Source: Microbacteriaceae bacterium
GTDB taxonomy: Bacteria > Actinomycetota > Actinomycetes > Actinomycetales > Microbacteriaceae
Length of the DNA stretch: 64,000 nucleotides
Assembly (NCBI GenBank): GCA_025465095.1
Contig: JAODME010000013.1
Coordinates: 1 to 64,000, forward strand
Reading direction: 5' to 3'
Part shown: piece by piece, positions 5,574 to 61,809 of the stretch
How positions within the stretch are numbered: position 1 is the first letter of the stretch
Layout of the letters: each line of letters starts with the position of its first letter
Translations under genes and position numbers: made by a program
Notes under the pieces: model-generated
Told to the model about the DNA's origin: nothing
What the model saw: the letters and a program-made list of their open reading frames with translations, nothing else
The model's database searches: none

Positions 5574-7067
5574 GTGTCGACCCTCAGTGACCTTGTTCTC
5601 GCCCAGGAGCGATCCACCGAAGCGGATGTGGAGTGGCTGCATCTGCTCGTCGGCGACTGGCAGCTGCTGGCCGATCTTGCGTTCGCCGACATCGTGCTCT
5701 GGGTGCCCACGTTGCACGACTCCTTTGTGGCGGTCGCGCACGCCCGCCCGTCGAGTTCGGCGACGCTGTTCTACCGGGACTTCGTCGGCCAGAACATCAA
5801 GCCGGAGTGGCGCAAACAGGTGACGGATGCGTTTCAGTCCGGTTTGATCGTCGACTCCTCCGCCCCGGACTGGTACGAGGAGACTCCGACACGGGTGCGG
5901 GCGGTTCCCGTGCTGCGCAGGCTGACGGCCACGGGTTCGGCGACCACCGAGCATCCGATCGCCATCATCACGCGGCACACCAATTTGAGCGAGGCACGCA
6001 CACCGAGCAGGCAGGAACTCACCTTCAACGAGTGCGCCAACGACCTGTTCGCGATGATCGCAGGCGGGGACTTCCCCGATTTGGGTGCGCCGACAGGTCC
6101 CCGCAGGGGAGCGCCGCGCGCATCAGATGGACTGTTGCGCCTGGATGTCGACGGCATCGTCACCTTCGCGAGCCCGAACGGCCTGTCGGCGTTCAACCGG
6201 ATGGGGTTCATCGGCGAACTCGAAGGCGAGTCGCTGGCCGAAGTCGCGACGAGCCTGCTGACCGGCAGGCTGGAGGTTGACGAGTCGCTGCCGCTCGTCG
6301 TCACCGGGCGGGCTCCGTGGCGCACCGACATCGAGTCGAAGGGTGTGACGGTGTCGCTGCGCGCCATCCCGATCCGGGACCGGGGGGAGAGGGTCGGTGC
6401 CATAGTGCTGTGCCGCGACGTTACCGAGTTGCGCCACCAGGAGCGCGAGTTGATCACGAAGGATGCCACGATCCGGGAGATTCACCACCGCGTCAAGAAC
6501 AACCTGCAGACGGTCGCCTCCCTGCTCAGGATCCAGGCGCGTCGATCGCGCTCCGAGGAGGCGCGCGAGTCGCTCAATCAGGCGATGCGCCGGGTGGCGG
6601 CGATCGCGGTCGTGCATGACACTCTCAGTGAGGGGCTCAACCAGAACGTCGATTTCGACGCGGTGTTCGACCGCGTGCTGCTACTCATCGCCGAGGTCGC
6701 GTCTACCCACAACACGAAGGTGCACCCCAAGTCGTCCGGCAGCTTCGGCGTCCTGCCGAGCGAGTATGCGACACCGCTCGCGCTCGCGCTGACGGAACTC
6801 GTCACCAACGCCGTGGAACACGGGCTCGCCGGCCGCGAGGGCGACGTCGAAATCGTCGCCACTCGAACTGAGGAGACGCTCAGCGTGGAGGTGCGTGACA
6901 CGGGAAGCGGGCTGCCGGAGGGAAAGGTCGGCTCCGGGCTCGGCACGCAGATCGTGCGCACCCTCATTCAGGGGGAGCTCGGCGGAACCATCGACTGGCA
7001 CACGATGGTCGGCAGCGGAACGGAAGTGACCATCGACATCCCGCTCGCCTGGATCAACGCCGTCTAG
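5574..7067 (+). CDS. pdtaS: PdtaS-type cytosolic sensor histidine kinase
   Basis: 497 residues from the GTG at 5574 (VSTLSDLVLAQ). This start fits known PdtaS N-termini better than the upstream ATG at 5544. Order: N-terminal GAF-like sensor (VEWLHLLVGDWQLLADLAFADIVLWVP), PAS-like region (about 190-290), HisKA_2 with phospho-acceptor His at 304 in IHHRVKNNLQTVASLLRIQARR, then HATPase_c (LTELVTNAVEHGL, VRDTGSGLP, SGLGTQIVRTL). There are no membrane segments. In mycobacteria PdtaS phosphorylates PdtaR, an ANTAR antiterminator; no such partner is in this window. The signal is not evident from sequence. Confidence 0.93.
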   Translation: MSTLSDLVLAQERSTEADVEWLHLLVGDWQLLADLAFADIVLWVPTLHDSFVAVAHARPSSSATLFYRDFVGQNIKPEWRKQVTDAFQSGLIVDSSAPDWYEETPTRVRAVPVLRRLTATGSATTEHPIAIITRHTNLSEARTPSRQELTFNECANDLFAMIAGGDFPDLGAPTGPRRGAPRASDGLLRLDVDGIVTFASPNGLSAFNRMGFIGELEGESLAEVATSLLTGRLEVDESLPLVVTGRAPWRTDIESKGVTVSLRAIPIRDRGERVGAIVLCRDVTELRHQERELITKDATIREIHHRVKNNLQTVASLLRIQARRSRSEEARESLNQAMRRVAAIAVVHDTLSEGLNQNVDFDAVFDRVLLLIAEVASTHNTKVHPKSSGSFGVLPSEYATPLALALTELVTNAVEHGLAGREGDVEIVATRTEETLSVEVRDTGSGLPEGKVGSGLGTQIVRTLIQGELGGTIDWHTMVGSGTEVTIDIPLAWINAV

Positions 7068-46524: not shown

Positions 46525-47250
46525 GTGAGGCGAGTGGGTCGATCATCCGTTCAGAGGCGCCCCGGCGCTGCGGTGCCCGTCATCCCGGGTCCGGCCCCTG
46601 AGTCAGGTGCGCCGCTTCGCTTGTGTCTCACGGCAGTTCTCTTGGCTTGCGTCTGGCTGGTCCTCGGTGCCGCCTCATCCGCTACCGCGTCGGAGCGCAA
46701 TGCTTCGTTCGTGCTCGAAACGGTCGGCACGAACCTGGAGGCAGGGTTCGAGCCGCACGCCATGGTTGCACCCGTCGTCGACGCCCTTGCCGCAGCGCCT
46801 CATGCCGACCTCGTGCCGGTCGTCGAAATCGTCACCCCTGCGGTTCATGAAGTGATCGGAGTCGTCGTGCTTCCTGCTCCGGTGGTGCCGGATGCGTCCG
46901 ACGCAGACGCCACGTCCGCTGTGGCCGTCACCACCGTTGCCGGTGCGGCCGATTCGTCTGCGGATGCCGATGCGGCGGTCCTCTCGTTCCTCCGGTGGAC
47001 CGCCGCTCCGACCGCTTCCGCCCATGCGCTTCATTCGGTACAGGCGTCGTTTCCTTCTCCGGAGGAGCCGCTCGAGGCGAACAATCACAGTGCCACGTCG
47101 GCAACGCCTGAAGCGAGCTCGGCCGGCGTTGCCGTCGCCGTCGCGGAGGACCGCCTAGGCTTCACCCTCGCCGTCGCCCCTGGCGCCGGAGGGAGCGACG
47201 AGGGGCATCCGGCGTCGCCCTCCTTCCAACCCGGTTCGGTTCCTGACTGA
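46525..47250 (+). CDS. Putative secreted Ala/Val-rich protein, unknown function
   Basis: 241 residues. A basic N-terminus (MRRVGRSSVQRRPG) leads to a hydrophobic segment, about 31-50 (LRLCLTAVLLACVWLVLGAAS), ending SATASERN, which looks like a signal peptide with an AxA-type site. The remainder is low-complexity Ala/Val/Ser/Pro sequence with no cysteines or catalytic motif. I do not recognise a family. It lies 86 bp before another secreted-looking gene of similar style. The start is tentative; a second in-frame GTG lies 9 nt downstream. Confidence 0.5.
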   Translation: MRRVGRSSVQRRPGAAVPVIPGPAPESGAPLRLCLTAVLLACVWLVLGAASSATASERNASFVLETVGTNLEAGFEPHAMVAPVVDALAAAPHADLVPVVEIVTPAVHEVIGVVVLPAPVVPDASDADATSAVAVTTVAGAADSSADADAAVLSFLRWTAAPTASAHALHSVQASFPSPEEPLEANNHSATSATPEASSAGVAVAVAEDRLGFTLAVAPGAGGSDEGHPASPSFQPGSVPD

Positions 47251-47336
47251 GTAGGTTCGCGCCGTCCACGTTGACGGTTTGTACCTCGTGTGCTCTCGCG
47301 CACTTCATCTCACTCGGAATCAGGAGCGATCGAACC

Positions 47337-48065
47337 ATGAACAAATATGTATCACGAGGGCTGTATTGCGCCCTTTTCGTCGGGGGCATCTCAGTTCCCG
47401 TTGCGTCCTCGGCTCATGCAATGGACGCCTCGGAACACGGCCACTCGCTGTCTGGCCAGCATGTGCTGGTTCCGGTGGATACGCCGGTCGAGTTCCCGGA
47501 CAGTGCCGTGACCGTGGCGGGTTACTCGCGCTCGGCAGACACCTTTCAGGACCGGGGTGGGGTGGCGCATTCGATGTCGACGGTGACTGCGGGCGATCCG
47601 TCGATCAGGGCTGGCAACCAGGTTGTGCCCGGCATCACGGCGCGAGTCGAGGTCCGAGACGACTCCGTTCCCGTCATGGAAGACTCACGATCGGGTGACT
47701 TCTCGACGGCTGAAGCGAGCAGCACACCCTCTCGGCAGGAGAACCCGCTCGCGCCGATCCGGACGCGCGGAGGCTCGTCCCTCGCGAGAGACCAAGGCTC
47801 CGAGCCGAGCGGATCCCCCGTGGCGGGCTCCGGAGCCCCTGCCGCCCTTCAGGTCATCGCGAGGCCAGTTCCCGCTCGTCCTGTCACCGACGCAGGTGTG
47901 GCACGGGGGAACGTCTCCTCGCCGCGTGCGTCAGGTGAGACTGAAGCGGTCGGGGTGGGGTCGAAAGGTGTTGGTTCCGCCGCATACGGGGTCGGCGCTC
48001 TGCTCGCCATCCTGATCACTGTGGGCGGGGTGCTGTCGGCCAGAGGCCAGGCGCTCAGGGGATGA
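47337..48065 (+). CDS. Putative secreted, membrane-anchored protein, unknown function
   Basis: 242 residues. It has a clear signal peptide: MNKYVSRGLYCALFVGGIS, then VPVASSAHA as a candidate cleavage site. The short N-terminal domain (GQHVLVPVDTPVEFPDSAVTVAGYSRSADTF) is followed by a disordered Ser/Pro/Gly-rich linker. A C-terminal membrane helix (AAYGVGALLAILITVGGVL) ends in a short ARGQALRG tail. This suggests an exported, C-terminally anchored surface protein. CAGGAG lies 10 nt before the ATG. No LPXTG motif and no recognised family. It follows another exported low-complexity protein. Confidence 0.65.
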   Translation: MNKYVSRGLYCALFVGGISVPVASSAHAMDASEHGHSLSGQHVLVPVDTPVEFPDSAVTVAGYSRSADTFQDRGGVAHSMSTVTAGDPSIRAGNQVVPGITARVEVRDDSVPVMEDSRSGDFSTAEASSTPSRQENPLAPIRTRGGSSLARDQGSEPSGSPVAGSGAPAALQVIARPVPARPVTDAGVARGNVSSPRASGETEAVGVGSKGVGSAAYGVGALLAILITVGGVLSARGQALRG

Positions 48066-48160
48066 AAGGGGCAAGGCGGATGTTGCCGGATGGTTCTGAT
48101 CCACGGCGTCCGTTCCCGCGATCCGCATCGCCGCGCGCCCGGCTGCCGATTCGCTTTCGG

Positions 48161-48171
48161 TACGCTAAAGT
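48161..48171 (+). promoter_or_regulatory. Candidate promoter -10 of tRNA-Gln
   Basis: Overlapping TACGCT and TAAAGT hexamers lie 31-42 nt before the tRNA. A convincing -35 was not found. Confidence 0.3.
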
Positions 48172-48202
48172 AGACAGTCGGCCCGGCTTCGGCTGGCGCC
48201 AT

Positions 48203-48274
48203 TGGGGTATGGTGTAATTGGCAACACGGAAGATTCTGATTCTTTTGTTCTTGGTTCGAGTCCAGGTACCCCAG
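48203..48274 (+). tRNA. tRNA-Gln (anticodon CTG)
   Basis: 72 nt. Acceptor TGGGGTA pairs with TACCCCA and the discriminator is G. D arm GTGTAATTGGCAACAC; anticodon stem GAAGA/TCTTT around loop TTCTGAT (anticodon CTG). T arm CTTGGTTCGAGTCCAGG. CCA is not encoded. It is followed directly by a strong terminator. Confidence 0.96.
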
Positions 48275-48279
48275 CTGTA

Positions 48280-48315
48280 GCCCCTGAGTTTCCGCGGAAA
48301 CCAGGGGCATTTTTT
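48280..48315 (+). terminator. Intrinsic terminator after tRNA-Gln
   Basis: GCCCCTG, a one-base bulge, then GTTTCC pair with GGAAAC and CAGGGGC around a two-base centre. Six T residues follow at 48310-48315. Confidence 0.9.
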
Positions 48316-48699
48316 GTTCCTCTACACGCTGTTCCGGTACGTCATGTCCGGCTTCATGGCGGAATTCCTTGACATTGTGATCAAGCCGCGGTCCATCCGG
48401 GAAGAAACCCACTTCGTCGGTTCGGCCTTTGATTTCCTCACCGACAGAACGGGCACCCGACCGGTGTGCGCAATCGGTGCCGCGAATTCGACAGATTGTG
48501 CGCTGCGAGCGGTTGCGCGAGGTGCGGGCTGATTAGCTGCTCCACGCCTCCGAGTTCTTCGGGGCGCGCCAATGAAGTCAAATCGAGGAGAGCGGCAGCG
48601 CAGCACACGGGTCCCTGTCCGGAACCCGCCTCCTCGGCGGATCTCGGCCCGGTCCACGCAGCTCTCTGACGCAATCGCCTGTACAAGGAGAATCGCTCT
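48316..48699. other. Intergenic region, no supported gene
   Basis: 384 bp between the tRNA-Gln terminator and the first GH3 gene. Short open frames on both strands lack ribosome-binding sites and family resemblance. TTGACA at 48369-48374 could be a -35, but the matching -10 position is poor. AAGGAG at 48685-48690 belongs to the GH3 gene. No repeat of the tRNA 3' end or integrase remnant was seen. Confidence 0.5.
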
Positions 48700-51663
48700 A
48701 TGAGTACCCGCGCGGCGAAGAAGCCGATGTCTAACAAAAAATTCGCCACAATCTGGATCAGCATTCTGGGCTTCGTGCTCGTTGTCGCAGTGACCGCGAA
48801 TGTCCTCCTCTCCGTGTACGGCAGCTGGGTCGAAACCCAGCTCGGCACGGGCACCTACAAAGTGAAAAACGCCAGCGAAACCGCTGATTGGGACACTGAG
48901 TACAACACTGCGGACTTCGACACCAAGGAAGACACCGAAGCAGCCGCCGACGCTCTCGTCCGCGAGATCGCTTCGGAAGGTGTGGTTCTGTTGAAGAACA
49001 ACGGCACCCTGCCCCTGGCTCCCGCCGACAGTCCCAAGGTGACCCTGCTAGGTCGCGCCGCCGCTGATCCCGTCTACGGCGGTTCAGGCTCCGGATCGGT
49101 TGACACGTCCACCGCGATCAACGCGAAGACGGGCCTTGAGGGCGCCGGCTTCGAGATCAACGAAACGGTCTACGACCAGCTCGCCGCATTCGCGCCAGAA
49201 ACTCTCCGGTCGAACATCGTGATGGACAAGCCGGCCGAGTCGAACTATGCGGTGGGTGAAATGCCCGTCGCCGACTACAGTGCCGAGTCGCTCGCCTCCT
49301 TCGAGGAGTTCAACGGCGCCGCGATCGTGGTCATCGGCCGCGGCGGCGGCGAGGGCGGAGACCTCACCACCAACATGGAAGGCTCCGACGCTAACTACGA
49401 GGCCGGACAGCACCAGCTCGAACTCAACCTCGACGAGAAGCAGCTCATCGCTCTTGCGAAGGCGCACTTCGACAACGTCGTTGTTCTGGTCAACGCCAGC
49501 ACCACCCTTGAGCTCGGCATCCTGCAGGACGACGAGGGCATCGACTCGATCCTCGCTATCGGATCGCCCGGCCAGAGCGGCTACGCAGCCGTCGGCAAGG
49601 TTCTCAGCGGCGAGGTCAACCCCTCCGGTCGCACGGTCGACATCTACCCGGCCGATTTCACTCAGGACCCCAGCTTCGTCAACATGGGTGACTTCCAGTA
49701 CTCCAACATCTCCGGCCTGCCGGAAGACGCTGGACTCGGTGTCGACGGCGGTGCTTACTTCGTGGACTATGAAGAGGGCATCTACGTGGGCTACCGCTAC
49801 TACGAGACCGCAGCCACCGAGGGATTCCTCAACTACGAGGACGCCGTTGTCTACCCGTTCGGATACGGGCTCAGCTACACCAGCTTCAGCCAGTCCATCG
49901 TGGGCAGCGACCTTGGCGCTGTTGACGGCGAGATCACGGTTGACGTGGAAGTGACCAACGCGGGGGATGTCGCAGGCAAGGACGTCGTTCAGCTCTATTA
50001 CACCGCTCCCTACACCGCCGGTGGCATCGAGAAGTCGTCGGTTGTTCTTGGCGACTTCGGCAAGACCGGGATTCTTGAGCCCGGCCAGTCGGAGACCGTT
50101 TCGGTCACCTTCGCGGTGGAGGGTATGGCGTCCTACGACGCCAACGGTGCAGAGGCCTACGTGCTGGATGCCGGTACCTACCAGCTGAAGATCCAGAACG
50201 ACTCGCACTCCCTCGAAGAGGGTGTGCAGGCAATCGACTACACGGTCGAAGAGCAGGTCATCTACGGCGGCGACATCAAACGCGCCACCGACGAGGTCGC
50301 AGCCACCAACCAGTTCGATGAGGCCAGCGCCGAGTTCACCGAGGGTTTGAGTGTCGCATTCTCGCGTGCCGACTTCGCGGGAACCTTCCCGACCGCGCCG
50401 ACCGACGAAGACAAGGTCGCCAACGACACCGTTGTAGCAAACTTCGGGGTTTACGACCACGCGGCGGTCGTCGAGGCATCCAACGCCGAGATGCCCACCA
50501 CGGGTGCCGACGGTGATATCGACCTGATCGACGTGCGCGGACTCGACTACGACGACCCGCAATGGGACAAGCTGCTCGACCGGTTGACCGTCGAGGAGAT
50601 GACCCAGGTCATTCTGTCCGGTGCCTACAACACCGGTGCGATCAACTCCATCGTGAAGCCCGCCACCGTCGACCTCGATGGCCCCGCCGGATACAGCTCC
50701 TTCCTGAACGACGCATACAGCGGAACGGCATACCCGTCCGCGGTGCTGATCGCATCGACCTGGAACAAGGAACTGGCATACGACATGGGTGTCTCCATCG
50801 GTAACGAGGGGCTCTTCCTGGGCGCCAACGGCTGGTACGGACCCGCGATCAACCTGCACCGTTCGCCCTTCGCCGGCCGTAACTTCGAGTACTACTCCGA
50901 AGACGGTGTGCTTTCGGGCAAGCTCGCAGCGCAGGTGATGTCTGGTGTTGGCAGCAAGGGGGTCACCCCCTTCGTCAAGCACTTCGCTTTGAACGACGTT
51001 GAGGTGAACCGCGTCAACAACGGCATCGCAGTGTGGGCCACCGAGCAGACAATCCGCGAGATCTACTTGAAGCCGTTCGAGATCGTGTTCAAGAACGCGA
51101 CCGCCGAGCTGCGCTTCATTTCAGGTGACGAGGGCACCGTCACCACCCGCGAGCACAGCGCCACCGGTGTGATGAGCTCGTTCAACCGCATCGGCTCCAG
51201 GTGGGCCGGCGGATCCGAGGCGCTGATGACGACGGTTCTGCGCGAGGAGTGGGGCTTCAACGGAATCGCCATCACCGACTTCAACCTGTACGCGTTCATG
51301 TACCCGGACCAGGCGATCAAGGCTGGCACCGATCTGATGCTCACCTTCCCGCCGATGAAGGGCCTGCAGGACACCACCAGTGCTGAGGGAATCACCAACA
51401 TCCGCACGTCCATGCACCACATCCTGTACTCGGTTGCCAACAGCAACGCGATGAGCGGCATCGCCACCGGCGCAACCATCGAGTACACGCCGCCGATGTG
51501 GCGCACCCTGCAGATCGCAATCGATGTGCTGCTCGGTCTGCTGCTGCTCGGGGGTGCCTTCCTGGTCTTCCGTCGCGTGCGCAAGCACCGCGACGGTGGC
51601 GAGGCCTCCGAAGTGGTTCCGACCGAGGAGGGTTCCCCCGAGGCGGCTGTTCCCACTCACTAA
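48700..51663 (+). CDS. Circularly permuted, membrane-anchored GH3 glycoside hydrolase
   Basis: 987 residues. An N-terminal membrane helix (FATIWISILGFVLVVAVTANVLL) is followed first by the GH3 alpha/beta-sandwich domain (LVREIASEGVVLLKNNGTLPL, about 95-395) and the fibronectin-III-like domain (YPFGYGLSYTSF, about 400-500). Only then comes the TIM barrel from about 610 (DRLTVEEMTQVILSG, DGPAGYSSF, RNFEYYSEDG, FVKHFALNDVEVNR). The predicted nucleophile is Asp860 in GIAITDFN. A second membrane helix (about 936-957) precedes a charged tail. Beta-glucosidase-type activity on the outer membrane face is inferred; the glycan is unknown. AAGGAG precedes the ATG. Confidence 0.9.
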   Translation: MSTRAAKKPMSNKKFATIWISILGFVLVVAVTANVLLSVYGSWVETQLGTGTYKVKNASETADWDTEYNTADFDTKEDTEAAADALVREIASEGVVLLKNNGTLPLAPADSPKVTLLGRAAADPVYGGSGSGSVDTSTAINAKTGLEGAGFEINETVYDQLAAFAPETLRSNIVMDKPAESNYAVGEMPVADYSAESLASFEEFNGAAIVVIGRGGGEGGDLTTNMEGSDANYEAGQHQLELNLDEKQLIALAKAHFDNVVVLVNASTTLELGILQDDEGIDSILAIGSPGQSGYAAVGKVLSGEVNPSGRTVDIYPADFTQDPSFVNMGDFQYSNISGLPEDAGLGVDGGAYFVDYEEGIYVGYRYYETAATEGFLNYEDAVVYPFGYGLSYTSFSQSIVGSDLGAVDGEITVDVEVTNAGDVAGKDVVQLYYTAPYTAGGIEKSSVVLGDFGKTGILEPGQSETVSVTFAVEGMASYDANGAEAYVLDAGTYQLKIQNDSHSLEEGVQAIDYTVEEQVIYGGDIKRATDEVAATNQFDEASAEFTEGLSVAFSRADFAGTFPTAPTDEDKVANDTVVANFGVYDHAAVVEASNAEMPTTGADGDIDLIDVRGLDYDDPQWDKLLDRLTVEEMTQVILSGAYNTGAINSIVKPATVDLDGPAGYSSFLNDAYSGTAYPSAVLIASTWNKELAYDMGVSIGNEGLFLGANGWYGPAINLHRSPFAGRNFEYYSEDGVLSGKLAAQVMSGVGSKGVTPFVKHFALNDVEVNRVNNGIAVWATEQTIREIYLKPFEIVFKNATAELRFISGDEGTVTTREHSATGVMSSFNRIGSRWAGGSEALMTTVLREEWGFNGIAITDFNLYAFMYPDQAIKAGTDLMLTFPPMKGLQDTTSAEGITNIRTSMHHILYSVANSNAMSGIATGATIEYTPPMWRTLQIAIDVLLGLLLLGGAFLVFRRVRKHRDGGEASEVVPTEEGSPEAAVPTH

Positions 51664-51690
51664 CCGGAACACGGCCTGATCATCCACTCA

Positions 51691-51725
51691 AGGATCGGCC
51701 TCCCCGCACCGGGGAGGCCGATCTT
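51691..51725 (+). terminator. Strong hairpin between the two GH3 genes
   Basis: A perfect 14-bp stem, GATCGGCCTCCCCG and its complement, with a 3-nt loop (CAC). It is extendable by a G-U and an A-U pair. Only TT follows, so it may be a partial terminator or an mRNA-stabilising structure. Confidence 0.65.
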
Positions 51726-51759
51726 CGGCGGTCACTTCAACAAGGAAAAGCGCAAGACA

Positions 51760-54171
51760 ATGATCGAGAACCTGACGTTGCTGGAAAAAGCCGCGTTGCT
51801 GAGTGGCAAGAACATCTGGGAAACCCGCGCGGTTCCGCGTCACGGCGTGCCCTCGTTGTTCATGGCCGACGGCCCGCACGGCGTGCGCAAGCAACTCGGC
51901 TCAGGAGATCATCTGGGCATCGCGGCATCCGAGAAAGCAACCTGCTTTCCAACCGCCGCCACCATCGCGAACAGCTGGGACCCGGTGCTCGCCGAGCAGA
52001 TCGGTGAAGCGCTCGGCGAGGAGGCCGCGAGCCTCGAGGTCGACGTGCTTCTCGGTCCAGGCCTCAATATCAAGCGCAGCCCGCTCTGCGGCCGCAACTT
52101 CGAATACTTCTCTGAAGACCCCTACCTGGCGGGCAAGATGGCCGCCGGCTACGTGCGCGGCATCCAATCCCAAGGCGTCGCCGCCACTCCCAAACACTTC
52201 GCGGTGAACAGCCAGGAGCTGCGCCGTATGACCACCGACTCGGTGGTCGACGAACGCACCCTCCGCGAGATCTACCTCACCGCCTTCGAGATCGTGGTGC
52301 GCGAGGCTGAGCCCCGCGCGCTGATGACCAGCTACAACCTCGTCAACGGCACCTATGCCAACGAGAATGCCTTCCTGCTGCAGAAGGTGCTCCGTGAGGA
52401 GTGGGGCTTCGACGGCGCAGTGATCACCGACTGGGGCGGCGGAAACGACGCCGTCGAGGGTGTGCGCAACGGCAGCGCCGTGGAGATGCCGTCACCTGGG
52501 CTGGACTCCGTACGCCAGATCGTCGCAGCCGTCGAAAACGGAACGTTGCCCGAGTCGGAACTCGACGCGCGGGTGCGCGAGGTAGTCGAACTGGCGCTCG
52601 CCTTCCGTTCCCCGCTCGACCCGGTCGCCCCGCTCGATGTCGTTGGCCACCACCTGCTAGCGCAGCGCGCGGCGGAGCAGAGCATCGTCCTGCTGAAAAA
52701 CCAGAATGGCATCCTGCCGCTGGCCGCCGGCACCCGCGTCGCGCTGATCGGCGACTTCGCTGAGTCGCCCAGGTACCAGGGCGCCGGCTCCTCCCTGGTG
52801 AACCCCACCCAGCTTGCGACCATGCTCGAAGCGATCGGCGCGACCAACCTCGACCTGGTGGAGTTCGCCCGCGGCTTCGACCGTCATGGCGCAGCGGATG
52901 AGCAGCTCGCTGCCGCGGCGGAACTCGCCGCCAGCGCCTCCGACGTTGTGGTGCTCTGCCTCGGCCTCGACGAGATCAGCGAATCCGAGGGTCTTGATCG
53001 CAGTCACCTCGGCATGGCGCAGAACCAGCTCGACCTGTTGGCCCGCCTGCACAAGGTGAACCCCAACATTGTTGTGGTTCTCAGTGCCGGCTCCGTGGTG
53101 GAGATCCCGTGGCTCGACCAGTGCGCAGCGCTGGTGCACGGCTACCTCTCCGGTCAGGCCGGTGCAGATGCCGTCCTGCGAGTTCTCACCGGCGCGATCA
53201 ACCCGTCCGGCAAACTTGCCGAGAGCTACCCCCTGCTGCATGAAGACAGCCCCGCCTTCTCGTGCTTCCCGGGGCTCCAGCGCACCTCCGAATACCGCGA
53301 GGGTCTCTACATCGGCTACCGCTACTACGACACCGCCGCGGTGCCTGTGCGGTTTCCGTTCGGTTACGGCCTCAGCTACACCGACTTCTCCTACAGCGAC
53401 CTCTCTGTAACACCCACATCGGTGAGCTTCACGGTCGAAAACGTAGGAACGGTGGATGGCGCCGAGATCGCCCAGGTCTACATCGGCCGCGTCGGTGCCG
53501 GCGTTCACCGCCCTGCCAAGGAGCTCAAAGGCTTCTTCAAGGTGCCGCTGGCGGCGGGCGAGAAGCGGCCGGTCACTATCGCCCTCGACGACAAAGCCTT
53601 CCGGCACTTTGATGTCGAGCAGGGCAGCTGGGCGGTCGAGAGCGCGGACTACACGATTCATGTCGGCGCGTCGGTCGCCGACATCCGCCTGACCGGCACT
53701 GTCGCGGTCGAGGGAACGGTGACGCCTGTCACCGCGCAGGATGCGGCGCTAGCGCCTTACTACGGCGCGCAGGTCGCCGAAGTGTCGGACGTCCACTTTG
53801 CTGCACTGTTGCGCCGCGACATCCCGGCCTCACAGTGGACGCCCGGCCCGCTCAACATCAACGACGCGCTCTGCCAGATGCGGACAGCCAAGAGTGTGCT
53901 GGCACGCCTCGCCTTCCGTCTGCTCGACCGGATGAAAACGAAGAGCGAGCGGGCACACGAACCCGACCTGAACATTCTGTTCCTTTACAACATGCCGTTT
54001 CGCGCTATCGCGAAGATGACCAACGGCGCCGTCAGCATGGAGATGGTCGAGTCGATTGTGCTCATCGTCAACGGCCGCTTTCTGCGCGGAGCCGGCACTC
54101 TCATTCGCGGGTTCCTTCGCAATGCGCGCGCCAATAGCCGAACCCGCAAGGCACTGGAGGCCTCGGCCTGA
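51760..54171 (+). CDS. GH3 beta-glucosidase-type hydrolase, conventional topology
   Basis: 803 residues with no signal peptide, so probably cytoplasmic. TIM barrel first (LTLLEKAALLSGKNIWETR, MADGPHGVRKQ, GPGLNIKRSPLCGRNFEYFSEDP, ATPKHFAVNSQE), with nucleophile Asp224 in GAVITDWGG. The alpha/beta sandwich follows (SIVLLKNQNGILPL, LCLGLDEISESEGLDRSHL), then the fibronectin-III-like domain (RFPFGYGLSYTDFSY). A C-terminal extension of about 110 residues (PDLNILFLYNMPFRAIAKM) resembles GH3 enzymes I recall from bifidobacteria and Firmicutes. AAGGAAAAG precedes the ATG. Paired with the exported permuted GH3, it may finish degradation of imported oligosaccharides (inference). Confidence 0.93.
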   Translation: MIENLTLLEKAALLSGKNIWETRAVPRHGVPSLFMADGPHGVRKQLGSGDHLGIAASEKATCFPTAATIANSWDPVLAEQIGEALGEEAASLEVDVLLGPGLNIKRSPLCGRNFEYFSEDPYLAGKMAAGYVRGIQSQGVAATPKHFAVNSQELRRMTTDSVVDERTLREIYLTAFEIVVREAEPRALMTSYNLVNGTYANENAFLLQKVLREEWGFDGAVITDWGGGNDAVEGVRNGSAVEMPSPGLDSVRQIVAAVENGTLPESELDARVREVVELALAFRSPLDPVAPLDVVGHHLLAQRAAEQSIVLLKNQNGILPLAAGTRVALIGDFAESPRYQGAGSSLVNPTQLATMLEAIGATNLDLVEFARGFDRHGAADEQLAAAAELAASASDVVVLCLGLDEISESEGLDRSHLGMAQNQLDLLARLHKVNPNIVVVLSAGSVVEIPWLDQCAALVHGYLSGQAGADAVLRVLTGAINPSGKLAESYPLLHEDSPAFSCFPGLQRTSEYREGLYIGYRYYDTAAVPVRFPFGYGLSYTDFSYSDLSVTPTSVSFTVENVGTVDGAEIAQVYIGRVGAGVHRPAKELKGFFKVPLAAGEKRPVTIALDDKAFRHFDVEQGSWAVESADYTIHVGASVADIRLTGTVAVEGTVTPVTAQDAALAPYYGAQVAEVSDVHFAALLRRDIPASQWTPGPLNINDALCQMRTAKSVLARLAFRLLDRMKTKSERAHEPDLNILFLYNMPFRAIAKMTNGAVSMEMVESIVLIVNGRFLRGAGTLIRGFLRNARANSRTRKALEASA

Positions 54172-54263
54172 GTCTGCCGGTTGCCCCGTCCTCCGCATCC
54201 CATCGTCTTCGCATTCCAAACGCTGCCACCTCCAATGTCTTCGTATCCAAGAGAGAGCCCCTG

Positions 54264-54911
54264 ATGATTACCAAGATCAAGGCAGGCTGGTCCGCCTTCG
54301 CGGCCAAGCGTCCCGCCATCGCCCAGTTCATCGTTTTTACGGTGCTGAGCTGCGGCATGACCGTGCTGCAGTTCATCCTGATGCCAGTGATCAAGTGGAT
54401 CTTCGGCATGACCAGCCTGGTGAACACGAGCTTCCAGGTTCTGCCGGTCGGCACCAACTTCGACGGCAGCACCTACTACCTCTTCGACTATGCCGCACGC
54501 GCACTGCCCGAGGGCGGCGGTGGACTCGCCTACTTCCTGGCGGTGCAGATCACCCTGGCCATCGCGCAGGTGATCAACTTCTTCGCCCAGCGCAACATCA
54601 CCTTCAAGTCCAACAGCAGCCCCTGGGTGGCAGCGTTCTGGTACACCCTCGCATACGTGGTGATCAGCTTCGGCGCAGCAGCACTGCAGGGCTTCTACAA
54701 GGCGCCGGTCTACGAGCTGCTGATCACAACCTGGGGTCTCGGAGCCGGCGGTGAAGCCCTCGCCGACGTGGTCACTATGCTCATTAACGCGATCATCTCG
54801 TTCTGGGTCTTCTTCCCGATCTTCAAAGTGATCTTCAAGCGGGAACCCGAGCAGGCCGATGGCGCAGACAGCGCCACGGGGACAATCAAGATCGGGAGCG
54901 CACAGGGGTGA
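54264..54911 (+). CDS. GtrA-like membrane protein
   Basis: 215 residues, four membrane helices: QFIVFTVLSCGMTVLQFILMPV, AYFLAVQITLAIAQVINFF, AAFWYTLAYVVISFGAAALQ and VVTMLINAIISFWVFFPIFKV. The motif VINFFAQRNITFKS corresponds to the conserved NF...R..VF segment of GtrA proteins. These assist flipping or transfer of lipid-linked sugars during surface polysaccharide glycosylation. It is longer than usual because of an inserted loop (about 45-80). Followed 7 nt later by a glycosyltransferase, the usual GtrA/GtrB-style pairing. Confidence 0.85.
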   Translation: MITKIKAGWSAFAAKRPAIAQFIVFTVLSCGMTVLQFILMPVIKWIFGMTSLVNTSFQVLPVGTNFDGSTYYLFDYAARALPEGGGGLAYFLAVQITLAIAQVINFFAQRNITFKSNSSPWVAAFWYTLAYVVISFGAAALQGFYKAPVYELLITTWGLGAGGEALADVVTMLINAIISFWVFFPIFKVIFKREPEQADGADSATGTIKIGSAQG

Positions 54912-54918
54912 CAGCAGT

Positions 54919-55935
54919 ATGAAGACGCTGTCCATCGTCGTGCCCTGCTACAACTCAGCCGACTATGTGCGTCGATGCCTGGACTCGCTGGTGATGGGGG
55001 GTGCCGACGTCGAGATCCTTGTGATCAATGACGGCTCCACCGACCATACCGGGCTGATCGCCGAGGAGTATCAAGCGCGATTCCCCGGGATGGTGCGCGC
55101 GATCCACAAGCCCAACGGCGGCCACGGTTCGGCGATCAACACCGGCATCGACGAGGCCATCGGCCGGCATATCAAGATCGTGGACAGCGACGACTGGGTT
55201 GATGCCGAGGCGTACAGCGCTGTTCTGCGTGCCCTGAAGGGCTTCGCCTCCACCGGCACCGAGATCGACGCGCTGCTGAGCAACTTCGTCTACGAGAAGG
55301 CCGGCAGACGCACCGGTCACGTTGTACGGTACCGCGGGGCGCTGCCGCGCGGACGCGTCTTCGGCTGGCACGAGGTAGGCCGGTTTCGACCGACCCAGTA
55401 CATCCTGATGCACTCGCTGATCTACCGCAGCGAGTTGCTGCGGGAGTGCGGGCTGCGACTGCCCGAGCACACCTTCTACGTCGACAATCTCTACGCTTTT
55501 GTGCCATTGCCTCACGTCAAGACACTGTTCTACCTGGACGTGGACTTCTATCGGTACTTCATCGGGCGCGACGACCAGTCGGTCAACGAGAACGTGATGA
55601 TGCGCCGGCTCGATCAACAGATTAAGGTGAACCAGCTGATGCAGGAGCACCTGCCCGCCATCGGCGGCGTGCCCCTGCAGCTGAACTCGTACCTGCTGCA
55701 TTACTTCTCGATCATCTGCGGGGTGACCTCGATGATGCTCATCCGGTCGGGGACACCGGAGAGTTTCGCCGCGCGCGACGCCTTTTGGAGCTCTCTCCGC
55801 ACCGAGCAGCCCCGCCTGCACCGGCGGATGCGTCGACGCCCGGTCGCCCAGATCACCAACCTGCCTGGCCGCGCCGGTCGAGGCGTCTCGGTGTTCGCCT
55901 ACCTCCTGATGCGGCGGGTCGTGGGATTCAACTGA
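54919..55935 (+). CDS. Family 2 glycosyltransferase
   Basis: 338 residues, GT-A fold: LSIVVPCYNSADYVRRCLDSLVMG, ILVINDGSTDHTG, KPNGGHGSAINTGIDEA and the metal-binding DSDDWVDAEAY. The C-terminal part (YFIGRDDQSVNENVMMRR) lacks the paired membrane helices of polyprenyl-phosphate transferases such as GtrB, so it is a soluble or peripheral enzyme. Donor and acceptor are unknown. It lies just after the GtrA-like gene and is convergent with the histidine kinase, leaving only 9 bp between them. Confidence 0.93.
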   Translation: MKTLSIVVPCYNSADYVRRCLDSLVMGGADVEILVINDGSTDHTGLIAEEYQARFPGMVRAIHKPNGGHGSAINTGIDEAIGRHIKIVDSDDWVDAEAYSAVLRALKGFASTGTEIDALLSNFVYEKAGRRTGHVVRYRGALPRGRVFGWHEVGRFRPTQYILMHSLIYRSELLRECGLRLPEHTFYVDNLYAFVPLPHVKTLFYLDVDFYRYFIGRDDQSVNENVMMRRLDQQIKVNQLMQEHLPAIGGVPLQLNSYLLHYFSIICGVTSMMLIRSGTPESFAARDAFWSSLRTEQPRLHRRMRRRPVAQITNLPGRAGRGVSVFAYLLMRRVVGFN

Positions 55936-55944
55936 CCGGGTGAA

Positions 55945-57276
55945 CTACCGCGGGGCCCTTGGTATCAGCACCCGCAGCACGAACCAGTTCTCTTCTGCGT
56001 GAATGGTCACAGACCCGTCATACTTGTCTGCCGTGTAACGGATGCTCCGGATGCCGTGGCCGTGATCGTCCCGATCAGCCTTTTTTGTGGCGAGCACACC
56101 GTCTTCGAACCGCAACTCTCCCTCGTAGTAGTTCTCGAAGCGAATCAGCACGAAATCGTTCTGCGCGAAGAGGGCCAGGCGGATCAGCCTGCGGTCGGGA
56201 TCATCCAGCGTCATGGTGCTCTCAATCGCGTTGTCGAGAGCGTTGCCGAATATTGTGCTGATATCCATTGCGTCGAGACCCTCGAGCGCAGTGCCGTCCG
56301 CGACGGCCGTGAGGGTGATGTTGTGCTCGGCGCAGTACATACTTTTGGCAGTGAGAATGGTGTCCAGCACCGTGTTGCCGGTCTTGTTGTGCGTCTCGTA
56401 CCCCTTGATGCTCCCCTCGAGCACATCGAGGTAGGCGGCCTTTTTCTCGGGATTGCTCTCAGCTCGGATGATGCCGATCTGATGTTTCATGTCGTGGTAC
56501 TTGCGGTTGACCATGTCTATGTTGCGCTTTGACAAGAGGTATTGGTCGTGCTGGCTGCGCAAGATGCTGTTCATCGCCTCCAGCTCAGCCTTGCCGCTGA
56601 TTTCGAGCCGCTGCTCCTGTTGAGCGTAGAGCGCCGCATAGCCGCAGAGGTTGACCAGGGTGCGGATGTAGAAGATTTCGGGGCTCAACCTGCCGCTGAA
56701 CGGGGTGTTGGCGTTCAGAAAGCTGAAGTTGCTCATCACGAAGGTGAGCAGGGCGGTCACGACCGCGCTGATCAGTTCCTTGGTCGTCGCGTTCAGCAGC
56801 CGGTTCTTCGGAAAGTGCCGCACCTCGAGGTAGTAGGCGCCGGTGAACGCCGCCCCATACACGCCGACGAGAAGCACCGCGTTCCAGAGCGGGTCGCCCT
56901 GTGTAGCCGGGGGATAGAAGTACACCTCCAGCTGCCACTGGAGCGAAGCGACCAGCTCGGCGAGGATGAAGGCCCGCGCTGTGAAGTAGCCGGCGTCGCG
57001 CAGCGAGATGCGAGTGACGCCGAGCAGCAGTGTGTACATGCCGGTGGCGGCGAGGGCCATACCGAGCGTCCAGAACTCGATCGGCAGCATGCCTGCCATC
57101 AGCTGGATGCCCACCAGGCCCGCCGCGCCGAGAGTGACCACCATCACCAGGTTCGCCGTGGGCAGGCGTTTACGCAGGATCAGAATGTAGACCATGCAGG
57201 CAGCCCATTCCGCCAGGCCGGTATACCCGCGGGGGATGTCTGGCAGGGTGTCCAGAAGCACCGGGGCGGAAATCAC
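55945..57276 (-). CDS. GHKL-type membrane sensor histidine kinase (AgrC/LytS-like)
   Basis: 443 residues. Six or so N-terminal helices (about 20-210) are followed by a linker coiled coil (LEAMNSILRSQHDQYLLSKRNIDMVNRK). The phospho-acceptor box HDMKHQIGIIRAE and a HATPase_c_5-type ATP domain (IFGNALDNAIESTM, DHGHGIRSIRYTADKYDGSVTI) complete it. This layout is typical of peptide- or stress-sensing kinases that partner LytTR regulators in Firmicutes, and is less common in Microbacteriaceae. The start overlaps the regulator gene by ATGA, so the two form a pair. Confidence 0.92.
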   Translation of the reverse strand: MISAPVLLDTLPDIPRGYTGLAEWAACMVYILILRKRLPTANLVMVVTLGAAGLVGIQLMAGMLPIEFWTLGMALAATGMYTLLLGVTRISLRDAGYFTARAFILAELVASLQWQLEVYFYPPATQGDPLWNAVLLVGVYGAAFTGAYYLEVRHFPKNRLLNATTKELISAVVTALLTFVMSNFSFLNANTPFSGRLSPEIFYIRTLVNLCGYAALYAQQEQRLEISGKAELEAMNSILRSQHDQYLLSKRNIDMVNRKYHDMKHQIGIIRAESNPEKKAAYLDVLEGSIKGYETHNKTGNTVLDTILTAKSMYCAEHNITLTAVADGTALEGLDAMDISTIFGNALDNAIESTMTLDDPDRRLIRLALFAQNDFVLIRFENYYEGELRFEDGVLATKKADRDDHGHGIRSIRYTADKYDGSVTIHAEENWFVLRVLIPRAPR

Positions 57277-57986
57277 GCGGATCGACCGCCGACGTAGTCG
57301 GTCAGCGCGTCGAGGAACGCCTTTTTGCGGGGCCGGCTGATTTGCAGCTCGCGACCGCCAACCAGTTGGCAGCTGTTCTGCTTGACACCGGTCACGTGCC
57401 GGAAATTCACCAGGTAGCAGCTGTTGCTGCGGAAGAAGTTGTTGCCGGCGAGCGTCGCCTCCATCTCTTTCAACGTTCCCACGAAGGAGTACTGCTTATC
57501 CAGCGTGTGTACGACCAAGCGATGCTTGACGCTCTCGAGATACACGATGCCCGCGACGTCCACCCTCGCCAACTCTCCGCCATGAGACAGCATGATCGAG
57601 TTGCGTTCCCGTTTGCTGGCACGTTCGATCGACCGGCGCAACTCCTGCGAGAAAGCGAAATACGGCACCGGCTTCAGCAGGTAGCTGAGGGCGTCGACCT
57701 CGTAGCCGCGGATGGCGAACTGGGCCATGTTGGTGATGAACACCAACACAACCTCGGGGTCGACCTCGCGGATGCGCCGGGCGGTCGAGAAACCGTCGAG
57801 ATGCTCCATCTCCACGTCGAGGAACACCACGTCGAAGACCGGGAGATAGGGTGAAGCGATGCCACGGCCATCGGTGAAAGTGCGGATCTCCAAGGTTTCG
57901 CCATGGTCCGCCTGGTAACGCGACAGATGATCGAGCAGCAACTGCATGCTTCGCGGCTCGTCCTCCACAATTGCTATGCGGATCAT
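57273..57986 (-). CDS. LytTR-family response regulator
   Basis: 237 residues. Receiver domain: acidic pocket VEDE (8-10), phospho-acceptor Asp57 in VVFLDVEMEHLDGF, and Lys105 in SYLLKPV. The C-terminal LytTR DNA-binding domain (about 130-232) carries IVYLESVKHRLVVHT, KEMEATLAGNNFFRSNSCYLVNFRHV and LQISRPRKKAFLDAL. It is the probable output of the downstream GHKL kinase. Likely targets are the neighbouring GH3/GT genes (inference). LytTR proteins bind paired direct repeats, but I did not find a convincing pair upstream of 48700 or 58154. Confidence 0.94.
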   Translation of the reverse strand: MIRIAIVEDEPRSMQLLLDHLSRYQADHGETLEIRTFTDGRGIASPYLPVFDVVFLDVEMEHLDGFSTARRIREVDPEVVLVFITNMAQFAIRGYEVDALSYLLKPVPYFAFSQELRRSIERASKRERNSIMLSHGGELARVDVAGIVYLESVKHRLVVHTLDKQYSFVGTLKEMEATLAGNNFFRSNSCYLVNFRHVTGVKQNSCQLVGGRELQISRPRKKAFLDALTDYVGGRSA

Positions 57987-58009
57987 AGTTCAGCTCATTC
58001 CTGGCTTGA

Positions 58010-59314
<1,305 letters not shown>

Positions 59315-59345
59315 GCCGACCTCGCGCCGCTAGGTTCGACCGCTT

Positions 59346-59719
59346 ATGCTGCGCGTGGTCATCGGTGCCCTGATTGCCGCGGTGGCGGTCTCGATCTTCG
59401 CGGTTGCGACGGCCTTCGACCAGTCTTCGCCATCGTCGGTTTCGCCGTATCCGCCTATCTGTTCGTGCTGGGCATCATCAAGATCTGGGAACCGTGCTCA
59501 TCCCGCTCGGCTACGCGCTCTTCACCCACTCGGCGACGGCCGCCAGCCGGAGGGCGGGCCCCGCGGTCATGTTCCGCCCGCAGGCAGAGGCGTATGCCGA
59601 CCGGGGCCACCCCTGCTCCTCCAATGGCCGAACTATGCGGATGGGACGGCGCTTCCCGCCGATGCAGGCGGCCCGACTTCACCGGCGTGCTCGGCTACGA
59701 CGAATGGGCCACGGGGTGA
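59346..59719 (+). pseudogene. Frameshifted remnant of a small membrane protein
   Basis: No single frame gives a sensible protein, but consecutive pieces in different frames do. MLRVVIGALIAAVAVSIFAVATAF is in the first frame. AIVGFAVSAYLFVLGIIKIWE is in the next (about 59418-59490). VLIPLGYALFTHSATAASR is in the third (about 59493-59550). They read like helices of one membrane protein broken by at least two indels. Family not recognised; real decay versus sequence error cannot be separated here. Confidence 0.5.
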
Positions 59720-59761
59720 AGCGCCCCGTGATCCCTGGCGCCCGCTGAACCGGGCACGACA

Positions 59762-59767
59762 TACGCT
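59762..59767 (+). promoter_or_regulatory. -10 hexamer, probable leaderless start
   Basis: TACGCT ends 6 nt before the ATG at 59774, with no Shine-Dalgarno. Confidence 0.4.
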
Positions 59768-59773
59768 GAACTC

Positions 59774-61003
59774 ATGAGACTCACCCGGTTCGCTCGACGG
59801 GTGACCGGTCAGGGAGTACCCGCACGACCGCGCCTGTCCCGAGACGTGCACGTGCTCGGCGTGATCGCGTTCTTCGTCATGGTGGGCTTCGGCGTGGTGA
59901 TTCCTGTGCTGCCCGTGTACGCGCGCAGCTTCGGGGTCGGTTACATCGAGGTGGGTGCTGTCATCTCCGCGTTCGCGCTGATGCGCCTCATCTCGAGCCC
60001 GTTCGTGGGGCGCCTCATCGACTGGGCCGGCGAACGCACGGTCCTCGCGGTCGGGATCGGTATCGTCGCGCTCTCGAGCGGACTCGTCGGAATTGCCCAG
60101 GACTACCCCCAACTGCTTCTGCTGCGAGGAGCAGGGGGTGTCGGATCGGCGATGTTCAGCGTCTCGGCGATGACGCTGCTGCTCGGGTCGACCTCGCCGA
60201 ACTTCCGTGCAAGGGCAATGGGCTTCTACCAGGGCGGCTTCCTCATCGGCGGAATGGCCGGTCCGGCGATCGGTGGTCTCCTCGCGACGATCTCGTTGAC
60301 GGCGCCGTTTTTCTTCTACGCGGGGACGCTGGCCGTCGCTGGGCTGATCGGGCTCATCATGCTTCACTCCGACGCCGAACGAGCGGCCGCGAGGGTCGAT
60401 CCGTCCGCGCGGACGCCCTTCCGGGAGGTGGTGCGCGACCGCCGGTTCCGGGCGGCGTGCATCGCCAACTTCTCCCAGGGCTGGACCTCCTTCGGGGTTC
60501 GGGCTGCGCTGATCCCGCTGCTCGTCGTCGAGGTTTTGAGGGAACCGACAGTCTGGACGGGGATCGCCTTCGCGTGTGCGGCCGTCGCGCAGACCCTCGC
60601 AATCGCACCGGCCGCCAGGTTCGTCGACACAGTCGGCCGCAAGCCAGCCATCGTCGGCGCCTTCGCGATCGCCGCGGCAACGATATTCGCGGTGCCATTC
60701 GCGCCCAACGTCGTCGTTCTCACTGTGCTGTTATGCCTCTACGGTGTGATGGCGGCGTTCATGGGGACCGCCCCCGCCGCCGCGGTAGGGGATGCCGCAG
60801 GAGCCGGAGGAGGGCGCCCCGTCGCCGTGTTCTCGATGTTCTCCGACTTCGGCGCGATCGTCGGTCCACTTGTGGCTGGTTTCCTCGCCGACACCGTCTC
60901 CTACGAAGTGGCCTTTGCCGTCGGCGCGCTGTTCCTCCTCGCGACCTCGGTGTACGCGCTGCGGATGCCCGGAGGAGTCCCAGTACATGAAACGCGCGCC
61001 TAG
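59774..61003 (+). CDS. Major facilitator superfamily drug-type transporter
   Basis: 409 residues, 12 predicted helices. MFS landmarks are the loop 2-3 motif SPFVGRLIDWAGERTVL, the antiporter-type segment GAGGVGSAMFSVSAMTLL and its GMAGPAIGGLL continuation, and the second-half loop RFVDTVGRKPAIVG. The pattern resembles multidrug or sugar efflux permeases of the TetA/MdtG kind. The substrate is unknown. The start is set by a -10 element 6 nt upstream of ATG. Confidence 0.9.
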   Translation: MRLTRFARRVTGQGVPARPRLSRDVHVLGVIAFFVMVGFGVVIPVLPVYARSFGVGYIEVGAVISAFALMRLISSPFVGRLIDWAGERTVLAVGIGIVALSSGLVGIAQDYPQLLLLRGAGGVGSAMFSVSAMTLLLGSTSPNFRARAMGFYQGGFLIGGMAGPAIGGLLATISLTAPFFFYAGTLAVAGLIGLIMLHSDAERAAARVDPSARTPFREVVRDRRFRAACIANFSQGWTSFGVRAALIPLLVVEVLREPTVWTGIAFACAAVAQTLAIAPAARFVDTVGRKPAIVGAFAIAAATIFAVPFAPNVVVLTVLLCLYGVMAAFMGTAPAAAVGDAAGAGGGRPVAVFSMFSDFGAIVGPLVAGFLADTVSYEVAFAVGALFLLATSVYALRMPGGVPVHETRA

Positions 61004-61099: not shown

Positions 61100-61128
61100 T
61101 AGACAGTTTCACTATCGATAGTTACTCT
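61100..61128 (+). promoter_or_regulatory. MerR-type promoter/operator
   Basis: TAGACA (61100-61105) and TACTCT (61123-61128) are separated by 17 bp. The perfect palindrome ACTATCGATAGT (61111-61122) fills most of the spacer. The -10 ends 6 nt before the merR ATG, so the mRNA is probably leaderless. A dyad between -35 and -10 is the expected position for a MerR-family regulator, though the classical spacer is 19 bp. Confidence 0.6.
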
Positions 61129-61134
61129 ATCTGA

Positions 61135-61809
61135 ATGCGCATATCGGAACTCAGCACGGCCAGCGGCGTGACCATTCCCACCATCAAGTTCTACCTTCGC
61201 GAAAATCTCCTTCCATCGGGCGAGGCGACGAGCGCCAATCAAGCGAGGTACGACGAGAGCCACGTCAAACGCCTCACGCTCATTCGCGCGCTGCTCGAAA
61301 TCGGTGGTCTCTCCGTGGCCGCCGCCAGGGACGTGATCGACGCGGTCGACAACGCCGACCTTCCACTCAATCAAGTCTTCGGAATCGCCCAGCGCGCGAT
61401 ATCCGGTTCCAACTTGTCCACGAACAGCGCGTCCGCGGAAAGCCGCGCCAGGGTGGCCTCCGTCCTCACCGAGCGCAAATGGCACGTGACGGACGATAAT
61501 CCGGGGCTCGCGGGAGCGGCGAAGGTGCTCGACCGATTCAGTGCGCTCGGGCATCCTGAACTCATCGATCTCATCGACGACTATGCGCTCGCCGCCGACA
61601 TCGTCGCCAGAGCAGATCTCCGGGTCGTCGGAAAACAGCCGAATGTCGCGGCGATGGCCGAGACCGTCGTCGCGGGAACCGTCCTCGGCGATGCGGTGTT
61701 CGCCGCGCTGCGCCGGATCGCGCAAGAGCACGTGAGCTCCGAGATGCACCCGGCGCCACATCCACTATCCCAAGCCCCGGCATCGATACCCGACAGGCGG
61801 AAGTCTTGA
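61135..61809 (+). CDS. MerR-family transcriptional regulator
   Basis: 224 residues. N-terminal winged HTH: MRISELSTASGVTIPTIKFYLRENLLPSGEATSANQARYDESHVKRLTLIRALLEIGGLSVAAARDVIDAVD. The C-terminal region of about 130 residues is helical with no cysteine cluster, arguing against a metal sensor; a hydrophobic or small-molecule ligand is more likely. It overlaps the membrane protein downstream by TTGA, so that gene is the probable regulated partner. Autoregulation is suggested by the palindrome in its own promoter. Confidence 0.92.
   Translation: MRISELSTASGVTIPTIKFYLRENLLPSGEATSANQARYDESHVKRLTLIRALLEIGGLSVAAARDVIDAVDNADLPLNQVFGIAQRAISGSNLSTNSASAESRARVASVLTERKWHVTDDNPGLAGAAKVLDRFSALGHPELIDLIDDYALAADIVARADLRVVGKQPNVAAMAETVVAGTVLGDAVFAALRRIAQEHVSSEMHPAPHPLSQAPASIPDRRKS

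Follow-up and report, generated by a model that had tools for sequence, protein, structure and literature searches.

Seven adjacent genes of a Microbacteriaceae bacterium are best explained, with a probability of about one half, as a laterally acquired, self-contained and self-regulated surface-glycan cassette. The genes lie within positions 1 to 64,000 of contig JAODME010000013.1 (assembly GCA_025465095.1), the 64-kb stretch analysed here as a whole and hereafter called the window. They encode a permuted GH3 glycoside hydrolase (GH3p), a second GH3 (GH3b), a GtrA-like membrane protein, a GT2 glycosyltransferase, a GHKL sensor histidine kinase (HK), a LytTR response regulator (RR) and the UDP-galactopyranose mutase glf (Table 1). 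An original prediction, made from the letters of the window, had placed the first six of these between tRNA-Gln and glf, and Pfam matches together with open reading frame (ORF) coordinates confirm all six and their positions. In the open-licence literature, no account of the cassette as such was recognised.

Judged by comparison of loci, the gene set is not a chance neighbourhood because it recurs in other genomes. Loci were collected by scanning one genome per species with a GH3p alignment (best 80 of 551); the co-occurrence counts cover the 51 of 80 loci that span at least 19 kb and hold only given GH3p. Among the 24 Actinomycetia loci, which include one from a metagenome assembly with a GH3p grouping with Olsenella (L122), RR is present in 23, GH3b and a third, lipoprotein-like GH3 (GH3c) in 22 each, HK, GT2 and GtrA in 21 each, glf in 12 and an esterase in 4. 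A 136-residue lipoprotein-like protein is also found near GH3p in 21 of the 24. The 23 Bacillota loci carry RR, HK, GH3b and GtrA in 16 cases each, GT2 in 7, glf in 6, the esterase in 2 and GH3c in 1. For the two bifidobacterial and two coriobacterial loci, HK and RR are present throughout (4/4), and GH3b and GtrA in one. The original prediction had placed the same kinds of gene together in bifidobacteria, Coriobacteriia and Firmicutes, and these loci bear this out; its view that the genes have no obvious actinobacterial relatives is not supported, as closely related genes come from Actinomycetota no less than from gut Bacillota.

Inspection of gene order reveals that HK and RR are neighbours in most loci. 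The order GH3-GH3-GtrA-GT2-HK/RR-glf, with HK-RR reversed between GT2 and glf, is shared by Schaalia vaccimaxillae (L098) and Cellulomonas bogoriensis (L127), and Demequina subtropica (L115) has the window's order except for an esterase gene between GT2 and HK. One other Microbacteriaceae genome (G226) holds the same compact six genes, with a GH3p 59% identical to that of the window and glf on another contig. The window block is without GH3c and the small lipoprotein. PF00933 detected no third GH3 gene in the window's genome (rated 97.7% complete), matches to GH3c with an expectation value (E) < 0.01 fall only within GH3b itself, and no small-lipoprotein remnant was found near the block, the single weak match (E 0.007) being distant (6216-6395).

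Some features of the related loci deserve separate mention. The 136-residue protein (e.g. L092 9416-9826) has no Pfam match and is a candidate adaptor or sensor partner. The putative esterase (PF00756), lipoprotein-like by eye, lies beside the HK gene in four Demequina loci (L092 18508-19818, L097, L104 and L115). One locus (L074, genome G147) presents a weaker GH3p relative (42-45%) split over two frames of 743 and 416 aa, possibly a decaying copy; neither glf nor the cassette GtrA was found in that genome.

By domain content, HK and RR form a GHKL/LytTR two-component system, HK having a GHKL ATPase domain and hydrophobic segments in its N-terminal half, and their genes overlap by 4 bp. The pair resembles AgrC/AgrA-type systems in its GHKL kinase, its LytTR regulator and direct repeats with a 21-bp period. 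Assignment to the Agr equivalogs was nevertheless rejected, as HK and RR score 27.5 and 36.9 bits, far under the cut-offs of 500 (AgrC) and 400 (AgrA), and the repeats of the cassette stand at GH3 genes and not at HK. Upstream of GH3c in many species lies a direct repeat close to CGACAGATTGTGC with a start-to-start distance of 21 bp. A matrix was trained on 27 GH3c upstream regions of other species and applied at a threshold of 15.8 bits, just above the 15.7 bits that shuffles of the GH3p set reached at most; all shuffles were mononucleotide, so that base content was kept and dinucleotides were not. Boxes above threshold occur at 23 of the 27 training regions and, for genes absent from training, upstream of GH3p in 17/78 and of GH3b in 11/52 cases, with every box at a GH3 gene on the coding strand. 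Counts upstream of other genes are 0/39 for HK, 3/66 for RR, 1/46 for GtrA, 1/34 for GT2, 1/25 for the small lipoprotein and 1/4 for the Demequina esterase genes, while the 4/21 boxes upstream of glf are all on the opposite strand, at loci with GH3c divergent beside glf.

Counting the window, 26 of 33 actinobacterial loci have a box upstream of a GH3 gene. The window box scores 17.7 bits (halves -2.5 and 20.2, the strong half being CGACAGATTGTGC at 48489-48501), is the best dyad on either strand of the 64 kb and was reached by 0 of 3000 shuffles of the upstream region. The matrix found no box in the upstream regions of the window's GH3b, GtrA, GT2, HK, RR and glf genes. By comparison across loci, the direct repeats are candidate LytTR sites at GH3 promoters, and they presumably agree with the general LytTR consensus. 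The neighbouring of HK and RR in most loci and the putative sites at GH3 promoters support a pair dedicated to the set, as originally proposed. A 12-bp gap between LytTR repeats, given in one report (PMC6193735), fits the observed box spacing. A pattern search for more sites in six genomes returned 8 matches in five of them, of which 5 fall in the block; a reversed control pattern returned 2 matches. The own genome contributed a single match, on contig 33 with 2 mismatches, and the pattern did not reach the block site of the window. ATCG/TCGA dyads spaced at 21 bp upstream of GH3p were rejected as regulatory elements; they look like coding periodicity because most coincide with the end of the preceding small-lipoprotein gene.

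The cassette probably entered this genome by lateral acquisition, as originally suggested. Among 398 Microbacteriaceae genomes the cassette GtrA was found in two, the window's and G226. It was found in 0 of 5 genus mates and in 54 of 396 genomes of an order sample, which counts the window's genome and adds one Microbacteriaceae genome with GtrA (G599). The gltX-trxR-tRNA-Gln site was located in four genus mates, the fifth not being placed. In these four, tRNA-Gln follows gltX-trxR and none of the seven block genes was seen within ~12 kb beyond it; the site is empty of the block, and tRNA-Gln is not joined directly to glf, a junction that the original prediction had proposed to look for in relatives. 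In a first sample of 149 relatives, GH3p identity exceeded 50% in three genomes of family f10 and in one of f20, and in no genome of the window's own family. Forcing the GH3p of the window together with those of three named Microbacteriaceae loci that carry it (L093, L094 and L102), a group chosen after the first tree, costs 265.7 log units, and the approximately unbiased (AU) test rejects it (p-AU 0.00016). That is to say, instead of family-wide presence with a congruent phylogeny, we observe two occurrences in 398 genomes and a rejected monophyly.

Composition contributes little to this conclusion. The GC content of 48700-59314 is 0.629, below both the left (0.668) and the right (0.658) flank, and the lowest-GC 10.6-kb stretch of the window begins at ~48.0 kb. 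At third codon positions (GC3), block genes have values of 0.82-0.86 against 0.84-0.89 for eight left-flank core genes, and there is no contrast with three right-flank genes (0.77-0.86). Overall the block is only mildly low, a weak sign of foreign origin. As to marks of integration, neither a second copy of the tRNA-Gln end nor other useful repeats were found in the window, and no integrase is among the seven block genes. It is quite improbable that the block is an ancestral actinobacterial locus lost many times without any transfer. The frequency of GtrA in some families of the order, the mild compositional difference and the deep branching of the window's gene copies would suit such a locus, but its occurrence in 2 of 398 family members would demand very many losses, the AU test speaks against a single Microbacteriaceae GH3p lineage, and the adjoining glf differs from that of a genus mate.

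The tRNA-Gln site itself shows further differences. The gap between trxR and tRNA-Gln measures 75-120 bp in two of the four genus mates and ~1.1 kb in a third, and contains a major facilitator superfamily (MFS) gene in the fourth. In the window two ORFs occupy it (46525-48065); they match no Pfam family, their GC3 is low at 0.71, and neither was found at the site in the four genus mates. The MFS gene to the right of the block (59774-61003) has a 73% relative in the genus mate G003 (L078 13087-14235), between trxR and tRNA-Gln. Because this relative sits on the other side of tRNA-Gln, the neighbourhood looks variable.

The original prediction ended the block before glf, a boundary that has to be moved. 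The gene product scores 320.6 bits with TIGR00031 (cut-off 303.75), and enzymes of this family make UDP-galactofuranose. By sequence comparison glf belongs to the cassette, because the gene order recurs elsewhere and because the window glf groups with the block-linked glf of Schaalia and two further genomes (support 97/80), not with the glf of a genus mate. Only one of five genus mates has glf, ~124 kb from that genome's tRNA-Gln. In the order sample, 52 of the 54 GtrA-positive genomes have glf, and in 23 it lies at most 12 kb from GtrA. Comparison with 18 same-family genomes, in which the cassette GtrA was searched and found in 0/18, gives glf in 11/18 (Fisher p 0.0006, kinship ignored).

The GtrA-like protein itself is a marginal match to PF04138 GtrA_DPMS_TM (27.0 bits, cut-off 26.1). 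A GtrA-like protein adjoining GT2 is also the arrangement of GtrA/GtrB glycosylation systems, from which the cassette differs by the addition of glf and GH3 enzymes and by its GT2. No hydrophobic segment was found in the latter, and because of this the cassette is not a standard Gtr system. A related explanation would have GT2 charge a polyprenyl carrier and GtrA flip it, so that the sugar decorates a wall polymer from which the GH3s remove it, with the LytTR pair balancing the two. We regard this Gtr-type glycosylation as doubtful. It accounts for the adjacency and co-occurrence of GtrA and GT2 and gains from the position of boxes mostly at GH3 genes, so that regulation would act on trimming; it is less easily reconciled with a GT2 devoid of hydrophobic segments and with the lack of a polytopic acceptor transferase among the seven genes.

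Both GH3s match the Pfam domains Glyco_hydro_3, Glyco_hydro_3_C and Fn3-like. Those of GH3p run in the order C-terminal (95-365), Fn3 (428-502) and N-terminal (653-796), which places it by domain content in the permuted GH3 subfamily. A structure model of GH3p (mean predicted local distance difference test score 87.8) aligns with GlyA1 5k6m (E 1.4e-55, root-mean-square deviation 5.2, 900 columns), and among the 50 matches listed only permuted GH3s (5k6l-o and 5wug/5wvp) align over ~900 columns. The C-Fn3-N order and the catalytic Asp/Glu are common to GH3p, GlyA1, the P. barengoltzii enzyme (5wug/5wvp) and BrGH3A; D860 and E218, catalytic by motif, are kept in 39/39 aligned rows (the window plus 38 of 82 other collected GH3p). 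Two properties set GH3p apart from these known enzymes. A hydrophobic helix is predicted at each end (residues ~13-44 and 936-961), unlike BrGH3A, which is reported to be without signal peptide. In addition, the position after the nucleophile, occupied in GlyA1 by W710, is Phe in 34, Tyr in 5 and Trp in 0 of the 39 rows. W710 stacks the glycon sugar according to the GlyA1 paper (PMC5104943). We take the replacement as a specificity feature, not as one required of every subfamily member. Horizontal transfer of permuted GH3s as such is already known; the GlyA1 authors note these enzymes in Firmicutes and Actinobacteria and propose their horizontal transfer.

GH3b has the usual domain order and a helical C-terminal extension of ~147 residues (~656-803) that aligns across its relatives; no membrane helix or hydrophobic end was found in it. 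Its catalytic residues, again by motif, and the Trp equivalent to GlyA1 W710 are both kept in 32/32 rows (the window plus 31 of 47 GH3b). The closest solved structures are the beta-glucosidases 7ms2, 9lql/8j9f and 5wab. With C. thermocellum BglB (7ms2) and Bifidobacterium adolescentis 5wab, GH3b shares the fold and the catalytic core at 38-43% identity in the listed structural alignments, and it differs from them in the extension, whose similarity to the BglB tail is only weak (E 1.6). The GH3b tail has no Pfam match; among solved structures, two designed helical-repeat proteins matched it (E 0.0003), but no individual stretch passed by itself. The suggestion that the tail points to gut-type relatives is neither supported nor contradicted: identities are 51-59% to Bacillota and 54-64% to Actinomycetia, and the unrooted tree puts the window's protein on the branch between Actinomycetia and Bacillota/Coriobacteriia rows (splits 98 and 96).

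That the closest solved GH3s are beta-glucosidases would fit a catabolic island, in which the GH3 pair digests environmental beta-glucosides, the two-component system senses sugars, and GtrA, GT2 and glf are passengers. The permuted GlyA1 and BrGH3A likewise act on oligosaccharides thought to be plant-derived. This explanation is nonetheless unlikely: a sugar importer is absent among the seven genes, passengers would not be expected to accompany the GH3s repeatedly in both phyla, as GtrA, GT2 and glf do, and the W710 position is Trp in none of the 39 aligned cassette GH3p.

In the preferred reading, that of an acquired surface-glycan cassette, glf would supply UDP-galactofuranose, and from it, or from a sugar built with it, GT2 and the GtrA-like protein would make a lipid-linked or surface glycan and flip that glycan. 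GH3p, which its predicted helices would hold to the outer membrane face, would trim this glycan, and GH3b would act in the cytoplasm on short products or intermediates. The kinase would sense a cell-surface cue, perhaps the state of the glycan, and the regulator would bind the direct repeats identified by comparison upstream of the GH3 genes and set their expression. The absence of Trp at this position of GH3p, taken together with glf, suggests that the sugar on the surface glycan is not glucose and may be galactofuranose. A bolder proposal, which we offer tentatively and would not expect to hold in full, is an undescribed mobile galactofuranose maintenance module of Gram-positives. Here glf, GT2 and GtrA would form a build-and-export unit, the doubly anchored GH3p would be an exo-galactofuranosidase with a re-shaped pocket, and released or uncapped glycan would be read by the GHKL/LytTR pair controlling the trimming genes. 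We know of no exo-galactofuranosidase specificity in GH3.

Several results weigh against the cassette and its proposed chemistry. Boxes above threshold are absent from 7 of the 33 actinobacterial loci and from 40 of the 49 others, and the upstream half of the window box is degraded. The cassette has no glf close by in 31 of the 54 GtrA-positive genomes, and the contrast of 52/54 with 11/18 was computed without allowing for shared ancestry. By name, the nearest solved GH3s are beta-glucosidases or beta-glycosidases, with no galactofuranosidase among those listed. Finally, the nearest relative differs by gene tree: the window lies beside Cellulomonas cellasea ET82 for GH3p (support 89), beside Tessaracoccus and Schaalia for RR (92), with Schaalia and two genomes for glf, and between groups for GH3b. 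This disagreement implies either a donor outside the sampled genomes or a set of mosaic origin.

Table 1. Positions in the window of the cassette genes and associated features.
Feature	Position	Strand	Remark	Evidence
tRNA-Gln (CTG)	48203..48275	+	left boundary of variable site	
LytTR-type direct-repeat box (candidate)	48468..48501	+	~200 bp 5' of permuted GH3	matrix score
Permuted GH3 (GH3p)	48700..51663	+	987 aa	Pfam, helix prediction, structure model
GC-rich 16-bp hairpin	51691..51725	+	between GH3 genes	RNA fold
Second GH3 (GH3b)	51760..54171	+	803 aa, usual domain order	Pfam
GtrA-like membrane protein	54264..54911	+		Pfam, hydrophobicity
GT2 glycosyltransferase	54919..55935	+		Pfam Glycos_transf_2
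GHKL sensor histidine kinase (HK)	55945..57276	-		Pfam HATPase_c_5
LytTR response regulator (RR)	57273..57986	-		Pfam Response_reg + LytTR
glf, UDP-galactopyranose mutase	58154..59314	+	cassette member	TIGR00031, linkage in relatives, tree

No gene could be assigned to 48316-48699, and a scan of 48100-59900 for sigma-70 promoters found 0, where shuffles averaged 1.7. The hairpin between the GH3 genes stands out in the predicted fold of 51660-51745 (z = -4.6) and may be a terminator or attenuator; it was not among the matches of a terminator scan requiring a T run. Taken together with the boxes upstream of GH3b elsewhere, the hairpin indicates that the second GH3 gene may be separately controlled. 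To the right of the block, a 32-bp imperfect palindrome (61101-61132) lies immediately 5' of an ORF at 61135 that is MerR-like by eye, and is a possible operator.

Each of the gene families described here is known. What makes the cassette amenable to testing as a unit is its recurrence in both Actinomycetota and Bacillota, together with a regulator of its own and predicted DNA sites. It yields candidate enzymes for galactofuranose turnover in bacteria, along with a predicted regulon, and would illustrate in detail how an entire surface-glycan programme enters a genus otherwise without it.

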